The notes under the pieces: model-generated
Database searches by the model: none
Seen by the model: only the letters and a program-made list of their open reading frames with translations
What the model was told of the DNA's origin: nothing
Program-made: the position numbers and the translations under genes
Shown: positions 1 to 10,013 of the stretch, piece after piece
Layout of the letters: every line of letters starts with the position of its first letter
How positions within the stretch are numbered: position 1 is the first letter of the stretch
NCBI RefSeq assembly: GCF_023702715.1
Contig: NZ_CP098480.1
Span: 3,596,001-3,660,000 of the forward strand
Source of the DNA: Acinetobacter sp. C32I
Lineage (GTDB): Bacteria; Pseudomonadota; Gammaproteobacteria; Pseudomonadales; Moraxellaceae
DNA length: 64,000 nt
Direction: 5' to 3'

Positions 1-147
1 GCTTTATTCAATACCGCAATGCTACATGACGATGGCATCATCGATCCGAGAGATACCCGTAAAGTATTGATATTTTTATTACAAACTATTTATGAAGCAC
101 AACAACGTGAGTTAAATCCAACACGTTTTGGTGTGTCGAGATTTTAA
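1..147 (+). CDS. atuC: Acyl-CoA carboxylase beta (carboxyltransferase) subunit, C-terminal fragment, AtuC-like
   Basis: Only the last 48 codons are in the window; the gene begins upstream. The fragment contains GIIDPRDTRKVL, a hallmark near the end of biotin-dependent acyl-CoA carboxyltransferase beta subunits (methylcrotonyl-CoA and geranyl-CoA carboxylases), and ends in RFGVSRF, the usual type of terminus. The beta subunit transfers the carboxyl group from biotin to the acyl-CoA. The matching alpha subunit lies downstream at 2314-4272. The order with the dehydrogenase and hydratase that follow matches the atu (acyclic terpene utilisation) operon of Pseudomonas, so geranyl-CoA is the likely substrate. 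A leucine-pathway (liu) beta subunit cannot be excluded from this short piece. Confidence 0.75.
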   Translation, partial: ALFNTAMLHDDGIIDPRDTRKVLIFLLQTIYEAQQRELNPTRFGVSRF

Positions 148-155
148 TTTTTAAC

Positions 156-197
156 ACCCTCATCCTAGCCTTCTCCCAGAGGGAGAGGGTTAGGGGG
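156..197. repeat. REP-like imperfect palindrome between atuC and atuD
   Basis: An imperfect inverted repeat has a left arm at 164-177 (CCTAGCCTTCTCCC) and a right arm at 181-194 (GGGAGAGGGTTAGG) around a 3-base loop. 12 of 14 positions pair if two mismatches are allowed. There is no run of T after it, so it does not look like an intrinsic terminator. It resembles the CCCTC...GAGGG intergenic palindromes common in proteobacteria, though this family resemblance is from memory. It may tune mRNA stability between atuC and atuD. Confidence 0.55.
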
Positions 198-1394: not shown

Positions 1395-2225
1395 ATGACA
1401 GTTGCAACTTCTCTTGCGGGCTTAGCGTTAGATGACAGCATTCAGCTCGAACAGCAAGGCGGTATTTTAACGCTATGGCTGAATCGTCCTGAAAGCCGTA
1501 ATGCCATGAGTTTAAAGATGGTCACTGCCATTCAACAGGTGTTTAGCCAGATTACCGATGATGTATCCATTCGCGCTGTGGTTTTACGTGGTCAAGGCGG
1601 GCATTTCTGTGCAGGTGGCGATATCAAGGATATGGCTGCATTACGTGTTGAAGCAGCCAATACGGGTAGCTTAGAGCCTTATGTGGATTTTAACCGTCGT
1701 TTTGGTGCCATGATTGAACAAGTGGATCAAGCACCGCAAACCGTTGTGGTGGTTTTGGAAGGAGCAGTACTCGGTGGCGGATTTGGTCTGGCTTGTGTTT
1801 CAGATATTGCCATCAGCCGTGATACTGCACAGTTTGGCCTACCTGAAACAGGCTTAGGTATTTTGCCTGCACAGATTGCGCCTTTTGTGGTGAAGCGGAT
1901 TGGTCTGACTCAAGCCCGTCGTTTGGCGTTATTGGGTTTACGTTTTGATGGCAAGACGGCTTTGGATTTGGGTGTTGTTCACCAAGTTGCACAAGATGAT
2001 GTTGCGCTTGAACAACAGCTTACAGAGATCATTCAGCAAATTAAACGTGCTGCACCATTGGCTTCCCGTACCACCAAAGCTTTATTACATCGGACACTGA
2101 ATGAGCCTTTAGGGCAGCTTTTGGATGATGCGGCACAACAGTTTGCTCAGGCTGTCGGCGGCGCAGAAGGACAAGAAGGCACCATGGCCTTTATTCAAAA
2201 ACGTAATCCAAATTGGTTTGACTAA
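1395..2225 (+). CDS. atuE: Enoyl-CoA hydratase/isomerase family, probable isohexenylglutaconyl-CoA hydratase (AtuE-like)
   Basis: A 276-residue crotonase-fold protein. LWLNRPESRNAMS is the N-terminal signature, HFCAGGDIKDMAAL the first oxyanion-hole segment (about residues 73-86), and GAVLGGGFGLACVSDIAI the second. LPETGLGILPAQ follows in the active-site region. The start chosen is the ATG at 1395, preceded by AGGAG at 1383-1387 with a 7-base spacer, 10 bases after the atuD stop. An in-frame upstream start at 1305 would overlap atuD by 80 bases and is rejected. Its position in the atuC-D-E-F order suggests hydration of isohexenyl-glutaconyl-CoA, the carboxylated product of geranyl-CoA. A methylglutaconyl-CoA hydratase (liuC) is the main alternative. 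Confidence 0.82.
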   Translation: MTVATSLAGLALDDSIQLEQQGGILTLWLNRPESRNAMSLKMVTAIQQVFSQITDDVSIRAVVLRGQGGHFCAGGDIKDMAALRVEAANTGSLEPYVDFNRRFGAMIEQVDQAPQTVVVVLEGAVLGGGFGLACVSDIAISRDTAQFGLPETGLGILPAQIAPFVVKRIGLTQARRLALLGLRFDGKTALDLGVVHQVAQDDVALEQQLTEIIQQIKRAAPLASRTTKALLHRTLNEPLGQLLDDAAQQFAQAVGGAEGQEGTMAFIQKRNPNWFD

Positions 2226-2251
2226 AATTTCCTCCAAATCCGTTTTATTAA

Positions 2252-2296
2252 ACAAGAGGGACTTCCTCCGTTAATAGGCGGATTGAGAGGGATTTA
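2252..2296. repeat. Short intergenic repeat-like element upstream of atuF
   Basis: The gap between atuE and atuF contains GAGGGACTTCCTCCG at 2256-2270, then a short spacer, CGGATTGAGAGGGA at 2279-2292 and a T-rich edge. TCCG/CGGA can pair, and GAGGGA is repeated directly at 2256 and 2287. This form resembles short palindromic intergenic repeats I recall from Acinetobacter genomes. Pairing is weak and no T-tract follows, so a terminator function is not supported. Confidence 0.4.
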
Positions 2297-2313
2297 ATAA
2301 TCGAGATGAAACA

Positions 2314-4272
2314 ATGAGTTTTTCAAAAGTCTTAGTGGCAAACCGTGGTGAAATTGCTGTTCGTGTGATGCAAACAGCTAAAGCAATGGGCTATCAAACG
2401 GTTGCGGTGTATTCAGATGCAGATGCCAATGCCCGTCATGTCCAGCTGGCGGATGAAGCGGTTTATATCGGTGCATCTAAAGTTTCAGAATCCTATTTAT
2501 CCATTGCCAATATTATTGCAGCCTGTCAGAAGACTGGTGCGGATGCGGTCCATCCAGGTTATGGCTTTCTGTCTGAAAATACCGACTTTGCTCAGGCTTG
2601 TCTTGATCATGGTATCACTTTTATTGGGCCGACCGCTGCTGCCATCGAGTTGATGGGCAGTAAACGTCTTTCTAAAATTGCCATGATTCAAGCAGGTGTA
2701 CCTTGTGTGCCTGGTTATGAAGGTGATCAGCAAGGCCTTGATTATCTGGCTGAACAAGCTGAGAAGATTGGCTATCCTTTAATGGTCAAAGCCTCGGCAG
2801 GTGGTGGTGGGCGAGGCATGCGTTTGGTCCAAGATGCTGCTGATGTATTGGACGCATTAAAAACAGCGCGTTCGGAAGCAGAAAATGCTTTTGGTTCGGG
2901 TGAGTTGATCTTAGAGAAAGCGGTGATTGCCCCAAGGCATGTCGAGATACAGGTCTTTGGAGATACACATGGCAATTATGTGTATTTATTTGAAAGGGAT
3001 TGTTCGATTCAACGCCGTCATCAAAAAGTCGTCGAAGAAGCACCTTGTCCAGTAATGACACCTGAACTACGTCAGAAAATGGGTGAGGCTGCTGTTGCGG
3101 CAGCACAGGCGTGTGATTATGTTGGGGCAGGCACGGTCGAGTTTCTGCTTGATCAATCGGGTGAATTCTATTTCTTGGAAATGAATACGCGTCTGCAAGT
3201 CGAACATCCAGTCACTGAAATGGTCACAGGCTTGGATTTGGTGGAATGGCAATTGCGTGTTGCCAATGGCGAAACCCTGCCTTTACAACAACATGAGTTG
3301 AGCTTAAACGGACATGCGATCGAAGTCCGTTTATATGCAGAAGATCCACGTCAAGACTTCCTGCCACAAACAGGTAAAGTACTGCGTTGGCAAGCAGCGG
3401 GTGCTGATGGTAGCTTACCCAATGTCCGTATTGATCATGGCATGCTGGAGCATGGTGAAATCAGCCCATTCTATGATCCGATGGTGGCGAAAGTGATTGC
3501 CTATGGCAAGACCCGTCAGGATGCGATTCGTCTGCTTGCCAAAGCGGTGGATGATTGTGTCTTGCTTGGTGTGAATAGTAATAAGCAGTTCCTTGTCAAT
3601 TTATTGCGTCATCCGATCATTGTGGCTGGGGATACCAACACCGCATTTATTCAACAGCACTTCCAAGAGGATATCAGCCTGCACCAGCAAGTTTTGCCGC
3701 TTGAGACTTTAGCTGTGGCAGCAGCACTGTTTACCCAGCAAAATCAGAAACAAGTGGCTTGGCAAACCGGTGTGGGTATGCCGTTTCCACTGAAACTGAA
3801 ATATGCCGATCAGCAGATACTGCTGCATGTGCAAAATGATCAGCAGCAGGTCAAAGTTGAGCTATGTGACCAACAAGCAACGATCAAGATTGTAAGCATC
3901 AGTGATGTGCAGATTGTTTATAGCTTTGAAGGTGTTCGACGCAAGCTCGCTTATGTCTTTGATCAAAATCAGCTGTATCTAGATACAGGCAATGGCAATG
4001 TGCTCATTGAAAATACCACCTATGCAGTACCAGAAGCGGCTGAGGTGGTGGGTGATGGCAAAATTCGTGCACCAATGGACGGTGCGATTGTGAATTTGCT
4101 GGTCAATGTTGGAGATTCAGTAACAAAAGGACAAACCTTATTGGTGCTTGAGGCGATGAAGATTCAGCAACAAATCAAATCCGATGTCGATGGTGTTGTC
4201 GAGGAGTTGATTGGTCAAGTCGGGCAACAAGTGAAAAAACGTCAATTGTTATTAAATCTCAGCACGACTTGA
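2314..4272 (+). CDS. atuF: Acyl-CoA carboxylase alpha subunit (biotin carboxylase + biotin carrier), probable geranyl-CoA carboxylase
   Basis: A 652-residue protein with the full biotin carboxylase domain at about residues 1-450. It starts FSKVLVANRGEIAVRVM, has the ATP-grasp glycine-rich loop KASAGGGGRGMR and the catalytic segment FLEMNTRLQVEHPVTEM. A linker region follows, then a C-terminal biotinyl domain with the acceptor lysine in LEAMKI (Lys616). It carboxylates biotin with ATP and bicarbonate for transfer by the AtuC-type beta subunit whose end opens this window. It follows the hydratase by 88 bases. No atuG or atuH follows: the next gene is on the opposite strand. The methylcrotonyl-CoA carboxylase alpha subunit (liuD) is the alternative identity. 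Confidence 0.85.
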   Translation: MSFSKVLVANRGEIAVRVMQTAKAMGYQTVAVYSDADANARHVQLADEAVYIGASKVSESYLSIANIIAACQKTGADAVHPGYGFLSENTDFAQACLDHGITFIGPTAAAIELMGSKRLSKIAMIQAGVPCVPGYEGDQQGLDYLAEQAEKIGYPLMVKASAGGGGRGMRLVQDAADVLDALKTARSEAENAFGSGELILEKAVIAPRHVEIQVFGDTHGNYVYLFERDCSIQRRHQKVVEEAPCPVMTPELRQKMGEAAVAAAQACDYVGAGTVEFLLDQSGEFYFLEMNTRLQVEHPVTEMVTGLDLVEWQLRVANGETLPLQQHELSLNGHAIEVRLYAEDPRQDFLPQTGKVLRWQAAGADGSLPNVRIDHGMLEHGEISPFYDPMVAKVIAYGKTRQDAIRLLAKAVDDCVLLGVNSNKQFLVNLLRHPIIVAGDTNTAFIQQHFQEDISLHQQVLPLETLAVAAALFTQQNQKQVAWQTGVGMPFPLKLKYADQQILLHVQNDQQQVKVELCDQQATIKIVSISDVQIVYSFEGVRRKLAYVFDQNQLYLDTGNGNVLIENTTYAVPEAAEVVGDGKIRAPMDGAIVNLLVNVGDSVTKGQTLLVLEAMKIQQQIKSDVDGVVEELIGQVGQQVKKRQLLLNLSTT

Positions 4273-4292
4273 AGACAACATTAGAATAGAGC

Positions 4293-4321
4293 AAAAAGCG
4301 AGGTCTTAGCCCTCGCTTTTT
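4293..4321. terminator. Bidirectional intrinsic terminator with a stop codon in its loop
   Basis: A perfect 11-bp stem AAAAAGCGAGG (4293-4303) pairs with CCTCGCTTTTT (4311-4321). The A-tract and T-tract make it a terminator on both strands, serving atuF (plus) and the converging gene at 4306-4779 (minus). The stop codon of the minus-strand gene (4306-4308) falls in the hairpin loop. Confidence 0.9.
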
Positions 4322-4779
4322 AATAAGTGCAGCACCGCATTTAAAGAATGCTCTGAATTCCCCAGTAATTCTTGTGTTGCAAATTCGGCCAAGGCTTGTT
4401 CATGCGCTAACAAATACTGGAGAAAGTCTTGTGTGTTGGCATCTGCGTGTTGCTGCATCCGCTCAAACGTTGCCATAAACGGCTGCGTACCTTGTTTCAG
4501 TAAATGCATGGACAGTTTCCAAGGCAGTTTAGCCATCGCAACCCCTGATGCTTTGGCCTGTAACTTAACATGCAAACGAATCGTCGCTGTTTGACCTTGT
4601 TGGATTAAGAACTGCTGTAACTTGTGCAGGGTTTGGGTTTCCAGTTTGGCCAGCGTTTGCCATTTTTGTTGTTGCTCAATTGAGCGTGTATGTTTGGCTG
4701 CATTTAAAAAGATCAGTTCACCCAGTATTTCTGATTCAAGTGCAGTATTCAGATCTTGTTGATATTGTGGGTAATGCAT
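4306..4779 (-). CDS. Small helical protein of unknown function, possibly ferritin-like
   Basis: 157 residues, no signal peptide or membrane segment, rich in leucine, glutamine and charged residues with long predicted amphipathic helices. The opening (ALESEILGELIFLNAAKH) and the regular spacing of Glu/His suggest a four-helix, ferritin/rubrerythrin-like fold, but a full set of metal-ligand motifs is not evident, so this is a guess. It is alone on the minus strand, converging with atuF, and shares the terminator at 4293-4321. I do not recognise the family. Confidence 0.6.
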   Translation of the reverse strand: MHYPQYQQDLNTALESEILGELIFLNAAKHTRSIEQQQKWQTLAKLETQTLHKLQQFLIQQGQTATIRLHVKLQAKASGVAMAKLPWKLSMHLLKQGTQPFMATFERMQQHADANTQDFLQYLLAHEQALAEFATQELLGNSEHSLNAVLHLLKSEG

Positions 4780-4856
4780 TCCTTAGATTTCCATGAATAA
4801 CAATCGATGGGTTAATCTATTATAAATAGCATAAAAAATATTCAAGACAAGCACTT

Positions 4857-4885
4857 AACCATCTATGGCTGTCATATAGATGGTT
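4857..4885. other. Hairpin downstream of the foldase-like gene
   Basis: AACCATCTAT (4857-4866) and ATAGATGGTT (4876-4885) form a perfect 10-bp stem with a 9-base loop, just past the stop of the minus-strand gene at 4895. No clear U-tract follows on the minus transcript, so it may be a 3'-end stabilising hairpin or a weak terminator. Confidence 0.5.
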
Positions 4886-4894
4886 TAAGCTAAA

Positions 4895-5824
4895 TTAAGG
4901 AAACATTTTCAAACGTAAATTTTCTAAACGACTTTGATATTGCTTTTGCCATTCTTCATTTGGCAGTTGTGTTTTTAACGGCTCCATCTCTTGTTGTAGC
5001 TGTTGTACAGCCTGCTGATATTGATTGACTTGTTGCTGTTGTTGAACTTCACGTTGTTCACGCTGCTGTACATCTTGGCGTTGCTGTTCGGTGAGATAGC
5101 GTTGTTGTAACATCTGCTTTAAGCGTTGCGTTTCAGCAGGGCTATGTTGTCCTTGATTGATTAAACCGAGTGCTTGTTCATAAAGCCCCATTTTATTTTC
5201 TTGTTGAGCTGCATCAGGGTACTGTTTTTGTAGCTGCTCAAATGCTTTTAAACGTTTTTCAGCACTAAGTTTCTGATTCTGCGCCAAATCATTGTAGGCA
5301 AACCGATAATCTGCATAACCACGCTCTTGCCCAAAACCCAGCATCGCTTCGGCTTGCCCCAAGGTTTGTTCTCTGAGCTTCCACAAAGTATCAAAGCGTT
5401 CTTTGGGCGATAACGACGTTGATAACACCGTGTTTTGCATACGCTGTTCATATTGCGGCATACGTTTTATTAGATTTTCCACCAAATGTGCAAAGTTTTG
5501 ATCTGGATAATTGGCTAAAGCTTTTGCTAAAGCTGTATTACAGTCGGATACAGGGCAGTTGGCTTTAAAATCATTGAGAAACTCGGTGATATTGCCGGGT
5601 TGCTGTTGTAGTGTTTTTAATTGTTTTAAAAGTGACTCTTGAAAAACTTCATCCTTGGTTTTGTTTGGCATGCCTTCATTACTCACCTGTGTTGATGAAT
5701 CTTGAGATGATGCGGTGGATTTGGTTTGTTGAATTGCAGCGGAAGAGGCAGTGCTCTTCCAAACTACAATCCCAACCAAGACCACGACAACAATAAGCAT
5801 TGTTAGCAATAGTCTTTTATTCAT
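4895..5824 (-). CDS. Lipase-chaperone (Lif/foldase)-like periplasmic protein paired with the sphingomyelinase
   Basis: 309 residues: one N-terminal membrane anchor (about residues 5-24), a Ser/Thr/Gln-rich linker, then an almost entirely helical periplasmic part that ends in Gln-rich helices. This matches the plan of lipase-specific foldases (Lif/LimB): anchor, variable linker, mini-domain, extended helical arm. The segment LREQTLGQAEAMLGFGQER followed by LSAEKRLKAFEQLQKQYP looks like the conserved LG-x-E..FG / LS..EK / LE..LP region of that family. The RxxFDYxLSALGE motif of the first mini-domain is not seen, and a CPVSDC pair stands nearby. It begins 12 bases after the sphingomyelinase stop, the usual enzyme-then-foldase order. 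It probably helps fold that enzyme before type II secretion. The family call is by eye. Confidence 0.65.
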   Translation of the reverse strand: MNKRLLLTMLIVVVVLVGIVVWKSTASSAAIQQTKSTASSQDSSTQVSNEGMPNKTKDEVFQESLLKQLKTLQQQPGNITEFLNDFKANCPVSDCNTALAKALANYPDQNFAHLVENLIKRMPQYEQRMQNTVLSTSLSPKERFDTLWKLREQTLGQAEAMLGFGQERGYADYRFAYNDLAQNQKLSAEKRLKAFEQLQKQYPDAAQQENKMGLYEQALGLINQGQHSPAETQRLKQMLQQRYLTEQQRQDVQQREQREVQQQQQVNQYQQAVQQLQQEMEPLKTQLPNEEWQKQYQSRLENLRLKMFP

Positions 5825-5836
5825 ACCGAATTCCGT

Positions 5837-7180
5837 TTATGGCCCGTAATTAAATTGCCCCATCACAGGGAAGTGATCTGAAAGATCCCATGTCATATAC
5901 AGTGGGTCCGCTGTGGTACGTAAGATACGCACATCGTTACGAGACTGAGTCGGTTGACGGTGGTTATTTGATGCCACCACATAGTCTAGATATTCGACTG
6001 TTGCACCACCTGAACCTGCTGCTCCAGCCAACTTATTCACGCGTGGGTCAAAGGTCGATTCAGTATAACCCGTACTTGGTGCTGCGGTCGCATTCAGATT
6101 GGTTAACATGTCTTGATAATCTTGCGGCCATAACAGTTTATTGACATTGAAATCACCGCCCATGAGCACAGCATCAAAACTTGGGATATTTTGTTGATTT
6201 ACCAATTGGCGAATTTGTTTGAACTGAACCTGACGCAATGCGCGTGCTGCATCGGTATCAAAAGAAGCGGTATGCGTAGAGGTGACATGATACGCCTTAC
6301 CATTCTTAATGATTTCTGCGTACAACACGCCTTTATCCGCAAAACAATCAGTTCCTGTACAGTCTGGATAAATCAATTGTGCTGTTTTGACGATTGGATA
6401 ACGGCTCACAATCACCAAGCCACTATCAAACAAGTTATAACCAGAACCGACTGGAATATGCGTTTGATATGGGTACTGTTGTGCCAGTTGATTCAGCATG
6501 CCTGTACGCGATGAAGCAAAGGCTTCTTGCATCATAATCACATCGTAACCGTTTAAATGATTTGGTAGTTCAGCCAAGCGTTCGCTGATTTTACTCGCCA
6601 CCATCGGCAGGGCATAAATATTGTAAGTCAGTACTTTTAGCTCATCGGCACTGGCTGAAACAGGCTCTTGAAGCGTGTTTTGATGAATGGTGTAGTGGAA
6701 ATCATCATAGCCCCCCGTGTATTCAGCTTTTACTGCTGCTTGTGCAGATAAACCGCCATAAGTTGTGCTAATACGGTGGACATCACGATCTGAATACCAT
6801 GGTGATGTTGTGGTCGCCGTTTGAATCCCATGTTTAATATTACTACCCGACCAGGTTCCCGTCATGGTTTGTTTTAAAGTGACTTGCGAATTGCCACTGC
6901 TGAGAACGGTATCAAAGTTATAGGTTTTACCAGATTTGATCCCAGTATAACGGTTGATACGTAATACTCTTTTGGTCTCGTAGGGTGCAAGTTGAGTCGC
7001 TTCCTGCGCCCATTCATTGCCTTGCTGTAAGCTTGCCCCAGTTTGATTGACTTGTATTGATACGGTTTGTGGCGTGGTATTGGTCACAAACACGTAGGAA
7101 TCAGCCAAGGTCTGTTGGGTAGAAAAACCACTGATTAAGAGCGCGACCCCTGCGCCTAGTTTTAAGCTCTTCAGCTTCAT
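5837..7180 (-). CDS. Secreted sphingomyelinase C-type phosphodiesterase (endonuclease/exonuclease/phosphatase fold)
   Basis: 447 residues from the ATG at 7180, which begins a clear Sec signal peptide (MKLKSLKLGAGVALLISGF, cleavage near TLA-DS) and is preceded by GGAGAG at good spacing. A longer in-frame start at 7246 lacks these features. An N-terminal beta-rich domain of about 180 residues precedes a DNase I-like catalytic domain. Visible motifs are LTYNIYALP, MMQEAF (metal-binding Glu), THTASFDTD, GGDFNV and the catalytic SDHFPV. These match bacterial neutral sphingomyelinases, which hydrolyse sphingomyelin to ceramide and phosphocholine; the substrate here is inferred. It is probably exported through the general secretory pathway and then across the outer membrane. 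The downstream foldase-like gene is likely its partner. Confidence 0.82.
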   Translation of the reverse strand: MKLKSLKLGAGVALLISGFSTQQTLADSYVFVTNTTPQTVSIQVNQTGASLQQGNEWAQEATQLAPYETKRVLRINRYTGIKSGKTYNFDTVLSSGNSQVTLKQTMTGTWSGSNIKHGIQTATTTSPWYSDRDVHRISTTYGGLSAQAAVKAEYTGGYDDFHYTIHQNTLQEPVSASADELKVLTYNIYALPMVASKISERLAELPNHLNGYDVIMMQEAFASSRTGMLNQLAQQYPYQTHIPVGSGYNLFDSGLVIVSRYPIVKTAQLIYPDCTGTDCFADKGVLYAEIIKNGKAYHVTSTHTASFDTDAARALRQVQFKQIRQLVNQQNIPSFDAVLMGGDFNVNKLLWPQDYQDMLTNLNATAAPSTGYTESTFDPRVNKLAGAAGSGGATVEYLDYVVASNNHRQPTQSRNDVRILRTTADPLYMTWDLSDHFPVMGQFNYGP

Positions 7181-7537
7181 CTTTATCTCTCCATAGTGCT
7201 TAATAATGTTTGAACAAATACATATTTCATTGTTGAAATTATTCATTTGTGAAAATTTTATGATTGTTATTTGTTCGAAAATTATAATAATGAAAAAATA
7301 TTGCTAAATCATTTAAATTTCTAACCGCTCATCTGATGTTTTTAAAAACAATATTTTATTCCATATTTTTGGCTGAAATAGGGATTTTTTAACAGATTGG
7401 GATAGTTATTTAGTGAAATATAGGAAAAGTAATGATTCAAAAAAGAAAATTGAAAAGTAATCTATTTATTATAGAGGCTATAAATGAACAAAATCTGACA
7501 AGCTGGCGATGCCTGTCAGATTTTGTGATGAGAAAAA
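7181..7537. other. AT-rich intergenic region upstream of the sphingomyelinase
   Basis: About 360 bases with no supported gene. It holds the ribosome-binding site and presumably the promoter of the sphingomyelinase operon (minus strand) and the terminator at 7491-7524. The rest is very AT-rich with no repeat I can define. A 67-codon plus-strand reading frame starting at 7432 runs antisense into the Roadblock gene and is not supported. Confidence 0.6.
7491..7524 (-). terminator. Intrinsic terminator of the Roadblock/GTPase operon
   Basis: AAATCTGACA (7491-7500) pairs perfectly with TGTCAGATTT (7514-7523) around a 13-base loop. On the minus strand the stem is followed by T-rich sequence, and it lies 14 bases past the stop of the gene at 7538. 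Confidence 0.75.
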
Positions 7538-7957
7538 TTAAGCTTGGTCAGCGTCGACGATTGCACTGCTGGTTTGTTTCAAACTATAGAGCAGCTGTCC
7601 TAATAAGACATCTTTATTACTTAAAGTCACCATGACCATGGGATGATGAGGGGCAGGGATTGAAGTTAGAATAGCCTTACCATTTTCAGCATCCAAGGTA
7701 ATACTTTGGCATCCCGTCAGTTGGATTTCATTGAGAAACGCCGTTACCATAGCCAAGATTGAACTGCTGACAGCCGCAAGTTTGGTGCTGTTATAAGGAT
7801 TCTTCTTGTAAATGGAGGCAAGCTCAAAACCATCGGTAGAGCAGAGCATAATATAATCGACGCCTCGGATATTGGTTAAAATATCATTGGCCTGCGCTTT
7901 GGCAAACTGAATCAGCTCTTTAGGTGCTGTACGTTGCTGACTGGGAATACTGAACAT
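7538..7957 (-). CDS. Roadblock/LC7 domain protein, distal member of a GTPase module
   Basis: 139 residues with the alpha/beta layout of the Roadblock/LC7 family: a starting helix, then IRGVDYIMLCSTDGFELASIY (strand-turn-strand), a central helix LAAVSSSILAMVTAFLNEI, and a second sheet half (SITLDAENGKAILTSIP, MVMVTLSNKDVLLGQLLYSL). Such proteins act as GTPase-activating or binding partners of small Ras-like GTPases (for example MglB for MglA). It is the last gene of a minus-strand run and lies 22 bases after the GTPase gene, which makes that GTPase its probable partner. No signal peptide; cytoplasmic. Confidence 0.82.
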   Translation of the reverse strand: MFSIPSQQRTAPKELIQFAKAQANDILTNIRGVDYIMLCSTDGFELASIYKKNPYNSTKLAAVSSSILAMVTAFLNEIQLTGCQSITLDAENGKAILTSIPAPHHPMVMVTLSNKDVLLGQLLYSLKQTSSAIVDADQA

Positions 7958-7979
7958 AATTCTTCTCTTTATAAAGTAA

Positions 7980-8522
7980 TTAATTTGTTGCTTTTAAATT
8001 GACTTCTAATGCTGCAATGAGCGATTCAATCATCAGCAAAATATGTTCTTGTTTACGGGCATCAATAAAAAATAAGGGATATTGATAGTCATTTTGGATT
8101 AACCACTCGCGATAGATGGTCGTAGGTTGCCCCTTGTTTTCATCCACGTGGGTGATGCCAATAGAAATGTTCTTGGTATAATCCTTGAAGGTATCTAAAT
8201 AGCCTTCAAGCTCTTCAATCGGTACTTTACTGTTGTGGTCAACCAATAAAATAACGCCCAAAGCACCTTGGCAAATCACCGGCCAAATGAAATCAAAGCG
8301 TGATTGACCAGGAGTACCGTATAAACCTACTTTTACACCGTCATCTAAAGTAATCTCGCCATAATCTATACCTACCGTAGTTTGCATTTTGTTATGGGCC
8401 TGACTATCTGTATTGAATGCTTCGGTTGCGAGGACAGGAATTTCTGAAAGCGATTTGATTGCTTCGGTTTTCCCTGCGCCCATGCTTCCTGCAAAGACAA
8501 TTTTATATTGTTGGAGAATCAT
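7980..8522 (-). CDS. Small Ras-like GTPase (MglA/COG2229 type)
   Basis: 180 residues. The P-loop is GSMGAGKT at residues 12-19. A switch I threonine lies in TTVGIDYG (about 48-55). The G3 segment is GTPGQ at 69-73 instead of DxxGQ, a form typical of MglA-like and conservon GTPases. The G4 position reads THVD at 124-127 instead of NKxD. It likely cycles between GTP and GDP states under control of the Roadblock proteins encoded on either side, and in other bacteria such pairs set polarity, motility or signalling. It is 8 bases downstream of the 322-residue gene and 22 bases upstream of the second Roadblock gene. Confidence 0.85.
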   Translation of the reverse strand: MILQQYKIVFAGSMGAGKTEAIKSLSEIPVLATEAFNTDSQAHNKMQTTVGIDYGEITLDDGVKVGLYGTPGQSRFDFIWPVICQGALGVILLVDHNSKVPIEELEGYLDTFKDYTKNISIGITHVDENKGQPTTIYREWLIQNDYQYPLFFIDARKQEHILLMIESLIAALEVNLKATN

Positions 8523-8530
8523 ATTAATCC

Positions 8531-9499
8531 TTAAAGCCCAAAGCGGCGTCTGATCTTGCCGAAAAATTTATTTAAAAAACCTTGTTGTTCAATTGTTTGT
8601 TCAGTCGTTTCGATTCGTAAGTAATGACTTTCTGAAGCAGGGATAATGCCGCCATTGTCAGAAATAATGCAGGCAGCGATAAATTGTTGAACCGTTTGAA
8701 TAGGAAGTTTTAATTGTGTTGCTACTTGATAGAGTTGGGCTCCTTGTATAAAGCAAGCAGAAAGCAATAAAGTGGTTTTACGGTCAGTGCTTTGAGCTGG
8801 CTGAGGCCAATATTCAATTTTGTAGTATTCATTTTCATTTGGGGCTAAACGCTGAAACTCGAGTGAATGCCAGAACAGGTTCCATAACCAATCTTGCAGG
8901 TTATATTCAACTTTGCGAGAAACTTTGGTGAAGTTTGAGGTGGTCGCAAATTCATATTTAAAACTATGGTTGGTTTGCGTATGGGTGCGGGTTGGTTCTA
9001 GCCATGCAATTTGACTCCGCGTATCAATAATGGCCAAAGTACCGTGATCATCAAACAAATGTAGACGGGCATTTTCAGGATTTAACATGTCGGTTAAATA
9101 CTTTTCATTGATGGCATTATGTGTCGAGGTCGATTCTATCTTCGGTTGTTGCGCCTGTTGATGGGTGATATAGCTTAAAAGGCGAAGATGAATCCAGTTT
9201 TTTAATGCATCAGTATGCTGAAAAGGCAAGTAAAGTGTATTGTGTTCTTCTATATGTTGTGAGCCTTCTCCTTTTGAAATTTTTAAGCAGGGAAGTTGTT
9301 TTTGTTCTAAAATACGTTGAATACCTTCGGTTTCAAAAAAATTTTCATTTATTAATAATAAGTCGATATTAGGATCGGCAATATTGATCCAATTAATGCC
9401 AAATTCATGAGGTATTGTTTTTCTAAGTTCTATTTTTAACTCATCTGAAACTTTTAAACTTATACCTGAAATTGCGATATTAATGCAATGTCCATTCAT
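8531..9499 (-). CDS. Uncharacterised protein of the Roadblock/GTPase operon
   Basis: 322 residues, no signal peptide or membrane helix. The N-terminal ~100 residues alternate strands and helices (INIAISGISLKV, IDLLLINENFF, LPCLKIS) like a degenerate receiver or Rossmann-type domain, without a clear phospho-acceptor set. The C-terminal third contains LYQVATQLKLPIQTVQQFIAAC, which could be a helix-turn-helix-like module and then ends in a basic tail (KFFGKIRRRFGL). I do not recognise the family. Its tight linkage to the GTPase suggests an effector or adaptor of the switch. Confidence 0.6.
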   Translation of the reverse strand: MNGHCINIAISGISLKVSDELKIELRKTIPHEFGINWINIADPNIDLLLINENFFETEGIQRILEQKQLPCLKISKGEGSQHIEEHNTLYLPFQHTDALKNWIHLRLLSYITHQQAQQPKIESTSTHNAINEKYLTDMLNPENARLHLFDDHGTLAIIDTRSQIAWLEPTRTHTQTNHSFKYEFATTSNFTKVSRKVEYNLQDWLWNLFWHSLEFQRLAPNENEYYKIEYWPQPAQSTDRKTTLLLSACFIQGAQLYQVATQLKLPIQTVQQFIAACIISDNGGIIPASESHYLRIETTEQTIEQQGFLNKFFGKIRRRFGL

Positions 9500-9653
9500 A
9501 GTATCACTTTAATATTTTATAAAATATTGGACTGCACAAAATTAGTCTAATACTAAAGACTAATAATAGACCGCTTGCATATTTATATTTTCTTATAATG
9601 AAAATATTAAATATACAAGAAGTCTAATATATTAAGTATTTTGAAACTTAGAA

Positions 9654-10013
9654 TTAAGCAAAGTCTAATTCTTTTTCAAATGTTTTTAATTCGTGGCGAG
9701 CCATCGCAAGGTTAGATTTACTACGGTCTAATACGAGATAAAGGAATAAGTTGCCATTGCTTTCTAATGGACGGATTAAGTGGTATGCCTTGCCCAGAGT
9801 GATTAGAATGTCTTCGATATCATCGTTCAGTTTCAGTGAGTTAGCTACACGGCGTTTTGCTCGAATAACTTCGGTATTACCCGCAGCTGCCAGTTCTAAG
9901 TCAATTGAACCCCCACCTTGAGTTGCTAGCGCCAAACCACTTTCTGTATCGACTAATGCTGCTGCAACGAACCCATCAATATTTGTTAAGCTTTCTAATG
10001 AAATTTTAGCCAT
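9654..10013 (-). CDS. Roadblock/LC7 domain protein, first member of the GTPase module
   Basis: 119 residues, a minimal Roadblock/LC7 domain. [19 protein letters not shown] is the first strand pair, [19 protein letters not shown] the central helix, and [18 protein letters not shown] plus [11 protein letters not shown] the second half. The ATG is preceded by AGAGAT. It is the first gene of the module and is separated from the 322-residue gene by 154 AT-rich bases, so it may also be expressed on its own. It probably forms a homodimer or a heterodimer with the other Roadblock protein to act on the GTPase; this is inferred from the MglB family. Confidence 0.85.

Follow-up and report, generated by a model that had tools for sequence, protein, structure and literature searches.

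Can a chaperone of the kind that folds lipases come to serve an enzyme of an unrelated fold? This question is raised by two genes in a 64,000-nucleotide stretch of Acinetobacter sp. C32I (contig NZ_CP098480.1, positions 3,596,001–3,660,000; hereafter the window), in which a gene for a sphingomyelinase-C-type enzyme (SMase) is followed, after 12 bases, by a gene for a helical protein, here called the partner, that resembles lipase foldases. Lipase foldases are the textbook one-client steric chaperone. An earlier note, made from the sequence alone, had described the two genes as those of a secreted DNase I-fold SMase-type enzyme and a membrane-anchored, helical foldase-like protein; both open reading frames (ORFs) and the enzyme motifs MMQEAF, GGDFNV and SDHFPV are confirmed here, the anchor as a prediction. 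Both genes are under purifying selection, with dN/dS (ratio of non-synonymous to synonymous substitution rates) values of 0.083–0.151 and 0.011–0.043 (six comparisons each). In our judgement the two probably form an enzyme plus its own foldase, the latter belonging to an old branch of the Lipase_chap superfamily that would serve a non-lipase as its chaperone. No publication on this pairing came up among the open-access papers surveyed.

Kinship of the partner with lipase foldases

The partner matches the Pfam family Lipase_chap (PF03280) over residues 125–280 with an E-value of 2.8e-9, passing the cut-off of 25.7 with 37.7 bits, and the NCBIfam lipase secretion chaperone model with 1e-8 and 34.7 bits, which misses the equivalog cut-off of 285. 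Profile–profile comparison with the lipase foldases gave a probability of 97.8 (E 1.2e-12) for 22 Acinetobacter partners and of 98.1 (E 8.8e-14) for 27 partners from many genera, the match spanning the EHD–MD2 part of the lipase foldases. Chance similarity, such as might arise in a glutamine-rich helical protein, was considered and rejected, the window partner scoring 21.6 bits against the lipase-foldase profile, where 200 shuffles of local composition reached 0.9 at most. Across genera, 13 of the 27 partners match Lipase_chap at an E-value of 0.01, and for 14 of the 27 the direct similarity to lipase foldases is no better than that of their shuffled versions; the Acinetobacter partner profile, which itself includes two of these rows (the window protein and that of locus L121), scores all 27 above their own shuffles.

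A structure model of the partner, built on an alignment of 69 rows that contains no lipase foldase, has a predicted N-terminal anchor helix (residues 3–23), a low-confidence stretch (16–52) and a helical body (57–307). Its top three matches among 350,542 PDB chains are lipase foldases (9g8u_B, 2es4_D and 2es4_E), with modest scores and a probability of 0.97 for the best, 9g8u_B; PDB sequence searches with the partner returned chance-level matches only. When 27 partners and 24 lipase foldases are placed in one tree, a single branch separates the two sets with a support of 100/100; this value is perhaps inflated, as some rows are long and the split is a meeting point of long branches. These data place the partner inside the Lipase_chap superfamily and outside the lipase-specific foldases proper; the foldase-family identity that the earlier note had supposed is upheld by the family search, with which profile–profile comparison and fold ranking agree.

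The absence of the RxxFDY segment, also remarked upon in that note, proved general. In lipase foldases the lipase-contact motif of MD1 is RXXFDY(F/C)L(S/T)A (PMC13381987). When its loose form [RK]..F[DE][YFK] was applied as the same pattern to both sets, all 18 Acinetobacter lipase foldases had it and none of the 69 partners did; it is likewise missing from all 74 distinct partner rows of three alignments, 24 of which have the bare start [RK]..F[DE]. The window partner ends, in the profile alignment, one residue past LRLKMF, whereas the Acinetobacter lipase foldases with a readable segment continue for 18–28 further residues. A close cysteine pair is present in the MD1-like part of 25 of the 27 partners, the other two being Aeromonas rows without that part; the Aeromonas partners (loci L162, L174 and others) are short, at 261–265 residues in the six matched loci of that genus. 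EHD and MD2 are reported to make the stable lipase contacts and MD1 transient ones (PMC13381987), and the parts kept in the partner agree with that stable-contact role.

Like the lipase-specific foldases (Lif, LipB and LipH; PF03280), the partner is predicted to have an N-terminal membrane helix, a variable linker and an all-helical body; it also has a significant profile match to them over EHD–MD2, a gene position beside a secreted lipolytic enzyme and, in 9g8u and 2es4, its nearest solved structures. It differs from them in the missing motif and C-terminal residues, in its separate supported branch and in its proposed client, a DNase I-fold phosphodiesterase rather than an alpha/beta hydrolase. 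Deposited names reflect little of this: Acinetobacter partners are called lipase (secretion) chaperone, chromosome segregation ATPase or hypothetical, and those of Vibrio hypothetical or chromosome partitioning protein ParA. The ParA name carried by the Vibrio partner-like proteins P0242–P0247 and P0250 is an apparent misannotation.

Linkage of the pair and the question of a lipase client

Among 175 Acinetobacter genomes, a Lipase_chap match is present in 146 and a TIGR03395 match, marking the SMase, in 36; in all 36 the partner lies directly downstream of the SMase on the same strand, with a gap of 1–20 bp in 35. The 36th genome, G085, has frame breaks that have cost both genes their first part, and the pair seems, from its sequence, to have decayed together. 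Locus L069 of that genome comes from the same assembly as L118 (A. sedimenti), with both genes broken near their starts. An SMase alignment, blind to the partner, was used to scan named genomes and yielded 145 relatives, of which the best 80 were used: 30 from Acinetobacter, many of them assemblies of the 175-genome survey, and 50 from other genera. The next gene matches the Acinetobacter partner profile in 78 of these, and the remaining two (L159, where the copy is cut by the contig end, and L165) also carry a partner, so that linkage is complete among the best 80 loci of 145. The co-occurrence for which the earlier note had called is thus found throughout both surveys, and the pair is spread over several gammaproteobacterial genera, in bacteria of sea, soil and water. 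In 28 of the 80 loci the two genes share 1 or 4 bases. In the window the 12-base same-strand gap fits a single transcript, and operon transcription may be supposed; a promoter and terminator scan gave no clear signal for the pair. Over 23 loci the mean identity is 57% for the SMases and 30% for the partners, and the distances are correlated (r 0.70), a value that would equally be expected from shared descent alone.

Could the partner nevertheless be an ordinary lipase foldase that stands beside the SMase by chance and serves a lipase encoded elsewhere? Several sources do name the Acinetobacter partners lipase secretion chaperone, and LipB of P. aeruginosa also serves LipC, which is encoded far away (PMC4713064). 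This explanation, already disfavoured, is highly improbable given the linkage at 80 of 80 loci, the motif missing from 69 of 69 partners and the separate tree branch; moreover, each of the seven SMase genomes inspected singly has a stronger lipase-foldase match elsewhere. The genome of the window itself encodes an ordinary lipase foldase apart from the partner, at C1:1307493–1308065, adjoining a GHSHG hydrolase. As the earlier note had stated, no lipase gene is in view: none of the window's ORFs of at least 120 residues matched a lipase profile built from the lipases beside 11 Acinetobacter lipase foldases. At 49 lipase-foldase loci a lipase was found in 47 (11 of these lipases having built the profile) and an SMase in none.

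A lipase stands near the SMase in four of the 80 loci (L147, L159, L170 and L171, from Vibrio and Moritella), and in each a lipase-foldase match adjoins that lipase, giving two enzyme–foldase pairs side by side; at L159, both ends of which are cut by the contig, this match is a piece at the contig end. The lipase-side foldases of L170 and L147 keep the motif as RDTFEYF, and the double pair of L170 (lipase with lipase foldase, SMase with partner) spans 1879–6276. In genome G121 (loci L079 and L085) the PF03280 match of the lipase-foldase gene is split in two, with about 870 bases in between, perhaps owing to an insertion.

The enzyme and the limits of the pairing

The window SMase matches TIGR03395 over residues 181–441 with an E-value of 9.7e-44 and 149.9 bits, missing the equivalog cut-off of 248.2; by sequence it is related to sphingomyelinase C and is no certified equivalog. 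Its sequence matches SmcL in the PDB (1zwx, 6.9e-36), and a structure search matched the catalytic fold to the bacterial SMase C/DNase I fold superfamily, the matched rows being those of the catalytic part. Seven residues (N187, E219, H303, D343, N345, D435 and H436) are invariant across a 62-row SMase alignment, and we take their roles to be those of the acidic, asparagine and histidine residues of the B. cereus SMase. Compared with the sphingomyelinases C of Bacillus, Listeria and Staphylococcus, the window enzyme has an extra all-beta N-domain, a TIGR03395 score below cut-off and a foldase-like partner. An in-frame upstream ATG offers an alternative start at 7246, giving 469 residues. In the paired SMases of loci L206 and L207, N-termini that look lipobox-like by eye raise the possibility that some clients are lipoproteins. 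The coordinates are collected in Table 1, together with the genes upstream of the pair.

Table 1. Features of the SMase–partner locus and its upstream neighbours (window coordinates unless residues are given)
Feature	Position	Strand	Remarks
SMase gene (sphingomyelinase-C-type)	5837–7180	minus	447 residues from the ATG at 7180
SMase signal peptide	residues about 1–26		by eye
SMase all-beta N-domain	residues about 27–175		
SMase DNase I-fold catalytic domain	residues 177–445		
Intergenic gap	5825–5836	minus	12 bases, both genes co-oriented
Partner gene	4895–5824	minus	309 residues; helical protein of the Lipase_chap superfamily, proposed SMase foldase
Upstream region	7538–10013	minus	
Roadblock/LC7-like small ORF	7538–7957	minus	named by sequence reading
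MglA-like small GTPase	7980–8522	minus	named by sequence reading
ORF of 322 residues	8531–9499	minus	
Roadblock/LC7-like small ORF	9654–10013	minus	named by sequence reading

The pairing has its limits. In an order-level sample of 293 genomes an SMase-like match was found in 29, at 45 places, and among the 30 of these 45 loci that were examined the seven best-scoring SMases (at least 539 bits, the window's included) are paired and the 23 others (at most 449 bits) are unpaired, four of the latter having less than 800 bp of downstream sequence. A weak partner match on the opposite strand at locus L209 (E 0.0019) was counted as chance. In a class-level sample of 369 genomes, 11 distant-SMase loci besides the window's were found, and within the flanking DNA available a partner was found at none. 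Around the conserved histidine, 23 of 23 paired SMases and 0 of 17 unpaired ones have the sequence TH[TA]A[SA][FS]D. In a tree of these 23 paired enzymes (two rows being identical) and 17 unpaired ones, a single branch separates the two sets with a support of 99/99, and with a midpoint root the paired enzymes are nested among the unpaired. On these results the partner was probably acquired a single time.

The N-domain was considered as the reason for a foldase and rejected, as loci L208–L210 and L180–L182 have an N-domain-like part and no foldase match in the flanking DNA available. Since relatives of the same domain plan stand without a partner, sphingomyelinases in general have no need of one. 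Recent recruitment within Acinetobacter is rejected in view of the spread over genera and of both trees. The proposal that a foldase had been recruited to an unrelated fold gains support from kinship and linkage and has to be amended in its age: this is no event of Acinetobacter alone, the branch being older and extending over several gammaproteobacterial genera.

A proposed role for the partner

In the mechanism that we favour, the SMase would reach the periplasm via the Sec pathway, where the partner, whose N-terminal helix presumably anchors it to the inner membrane, would extend on a flexible linker, clasp the enzyme with the helical body related to EHD–MD2 of the lipase foldases and help it to attain a native, secretion-ready form. 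Release of the folded enzyme would follow, and then export, for which type II secretion is the likeliest route. The partner shares its superfamily origin with the lipase foldases and, without lipase-contact motif and C-terminal tail, would serve an unrelated fold. A quite different possibility is that it acts as a periplasmic inhibitor, silencing the SMase until export. A clasp round an enzyme could block its activity, and the genes are very close; there would, however, be little to protect, as sphingomyelin is rare in bacterial membranes, and the relatives of the partner activate their clients, so that we regard an inhibitor as very unlikely.

For the type II route it may be noted that the genome of the window encodes GspD above the family cut-off. 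A precedent exists in Acinetobacter, where type II export of a lipase and of a protease depends on LipB and CpaB, both of them specific chaperones anchored in the membrane; no sphingomyelinase is named in the same paper's table of known and putative cases (PMC4713064). CpaB, the chaperone of the protease CpaA, is like the partner membrane-anchored and dedicated to a non-lipase type II substrate encoded by the adjacent gene; it differs in the SRPBCC-type domain reported for it (PMC4713064). In P. aeruginosa, PlcR is a chaperone complexed with PlcH, a secreted enzyme with sphingomyelinase activity (PMC8634861). PlcH, a phospholipase C/sphingomyelinase, belongs to another phosphoesterase superfamily (PMC2673038) and is exported by Tat and the Xcp type II system (PMC8634861).

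A secretion adaptor or holdase, which would hand the SMase, once folded, to the type II machinery with no role in folding, would also accommodate the predicted N-terminal helix and linker and the GspD of this genome, and in its favour CpaB is a type II chaperone of a different type (PMC4713064). The conserved region of the partner is, however, the client-clasping part of the lipase foldases, known for steric folding help, and we consider a pure adaptor unlikely. An enzyme with its own foldase remains our preferred reading. With less confidence, we lean towards a broader view, in which the scaffold is not restricted to lipases, one old client switch led to the SMase clade with the N-domain, and the pair was kept together across gammaproteobacterial groups, the foldase evolving much faster than its client and perhaps working in Aeromonas without an MD1-like domain. 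If the Aeromonas partners do so, steric folding help would need no more than EHD and MD2.

These results suggest that a foldase scaffold changed its client long ago. A sister branch whose client has another fold is a natural experiment for telling the contacts that steer folding from those that are client-specific, and for seeing how a dedicated chaperone comes to switch clients. The pairing also gives a possible function to genes deposited as hypothetical, ParA, chromosome segregation ATPase or lipase chaperone, and hints at what may be required to obtain this group of SMases as active enzymes.
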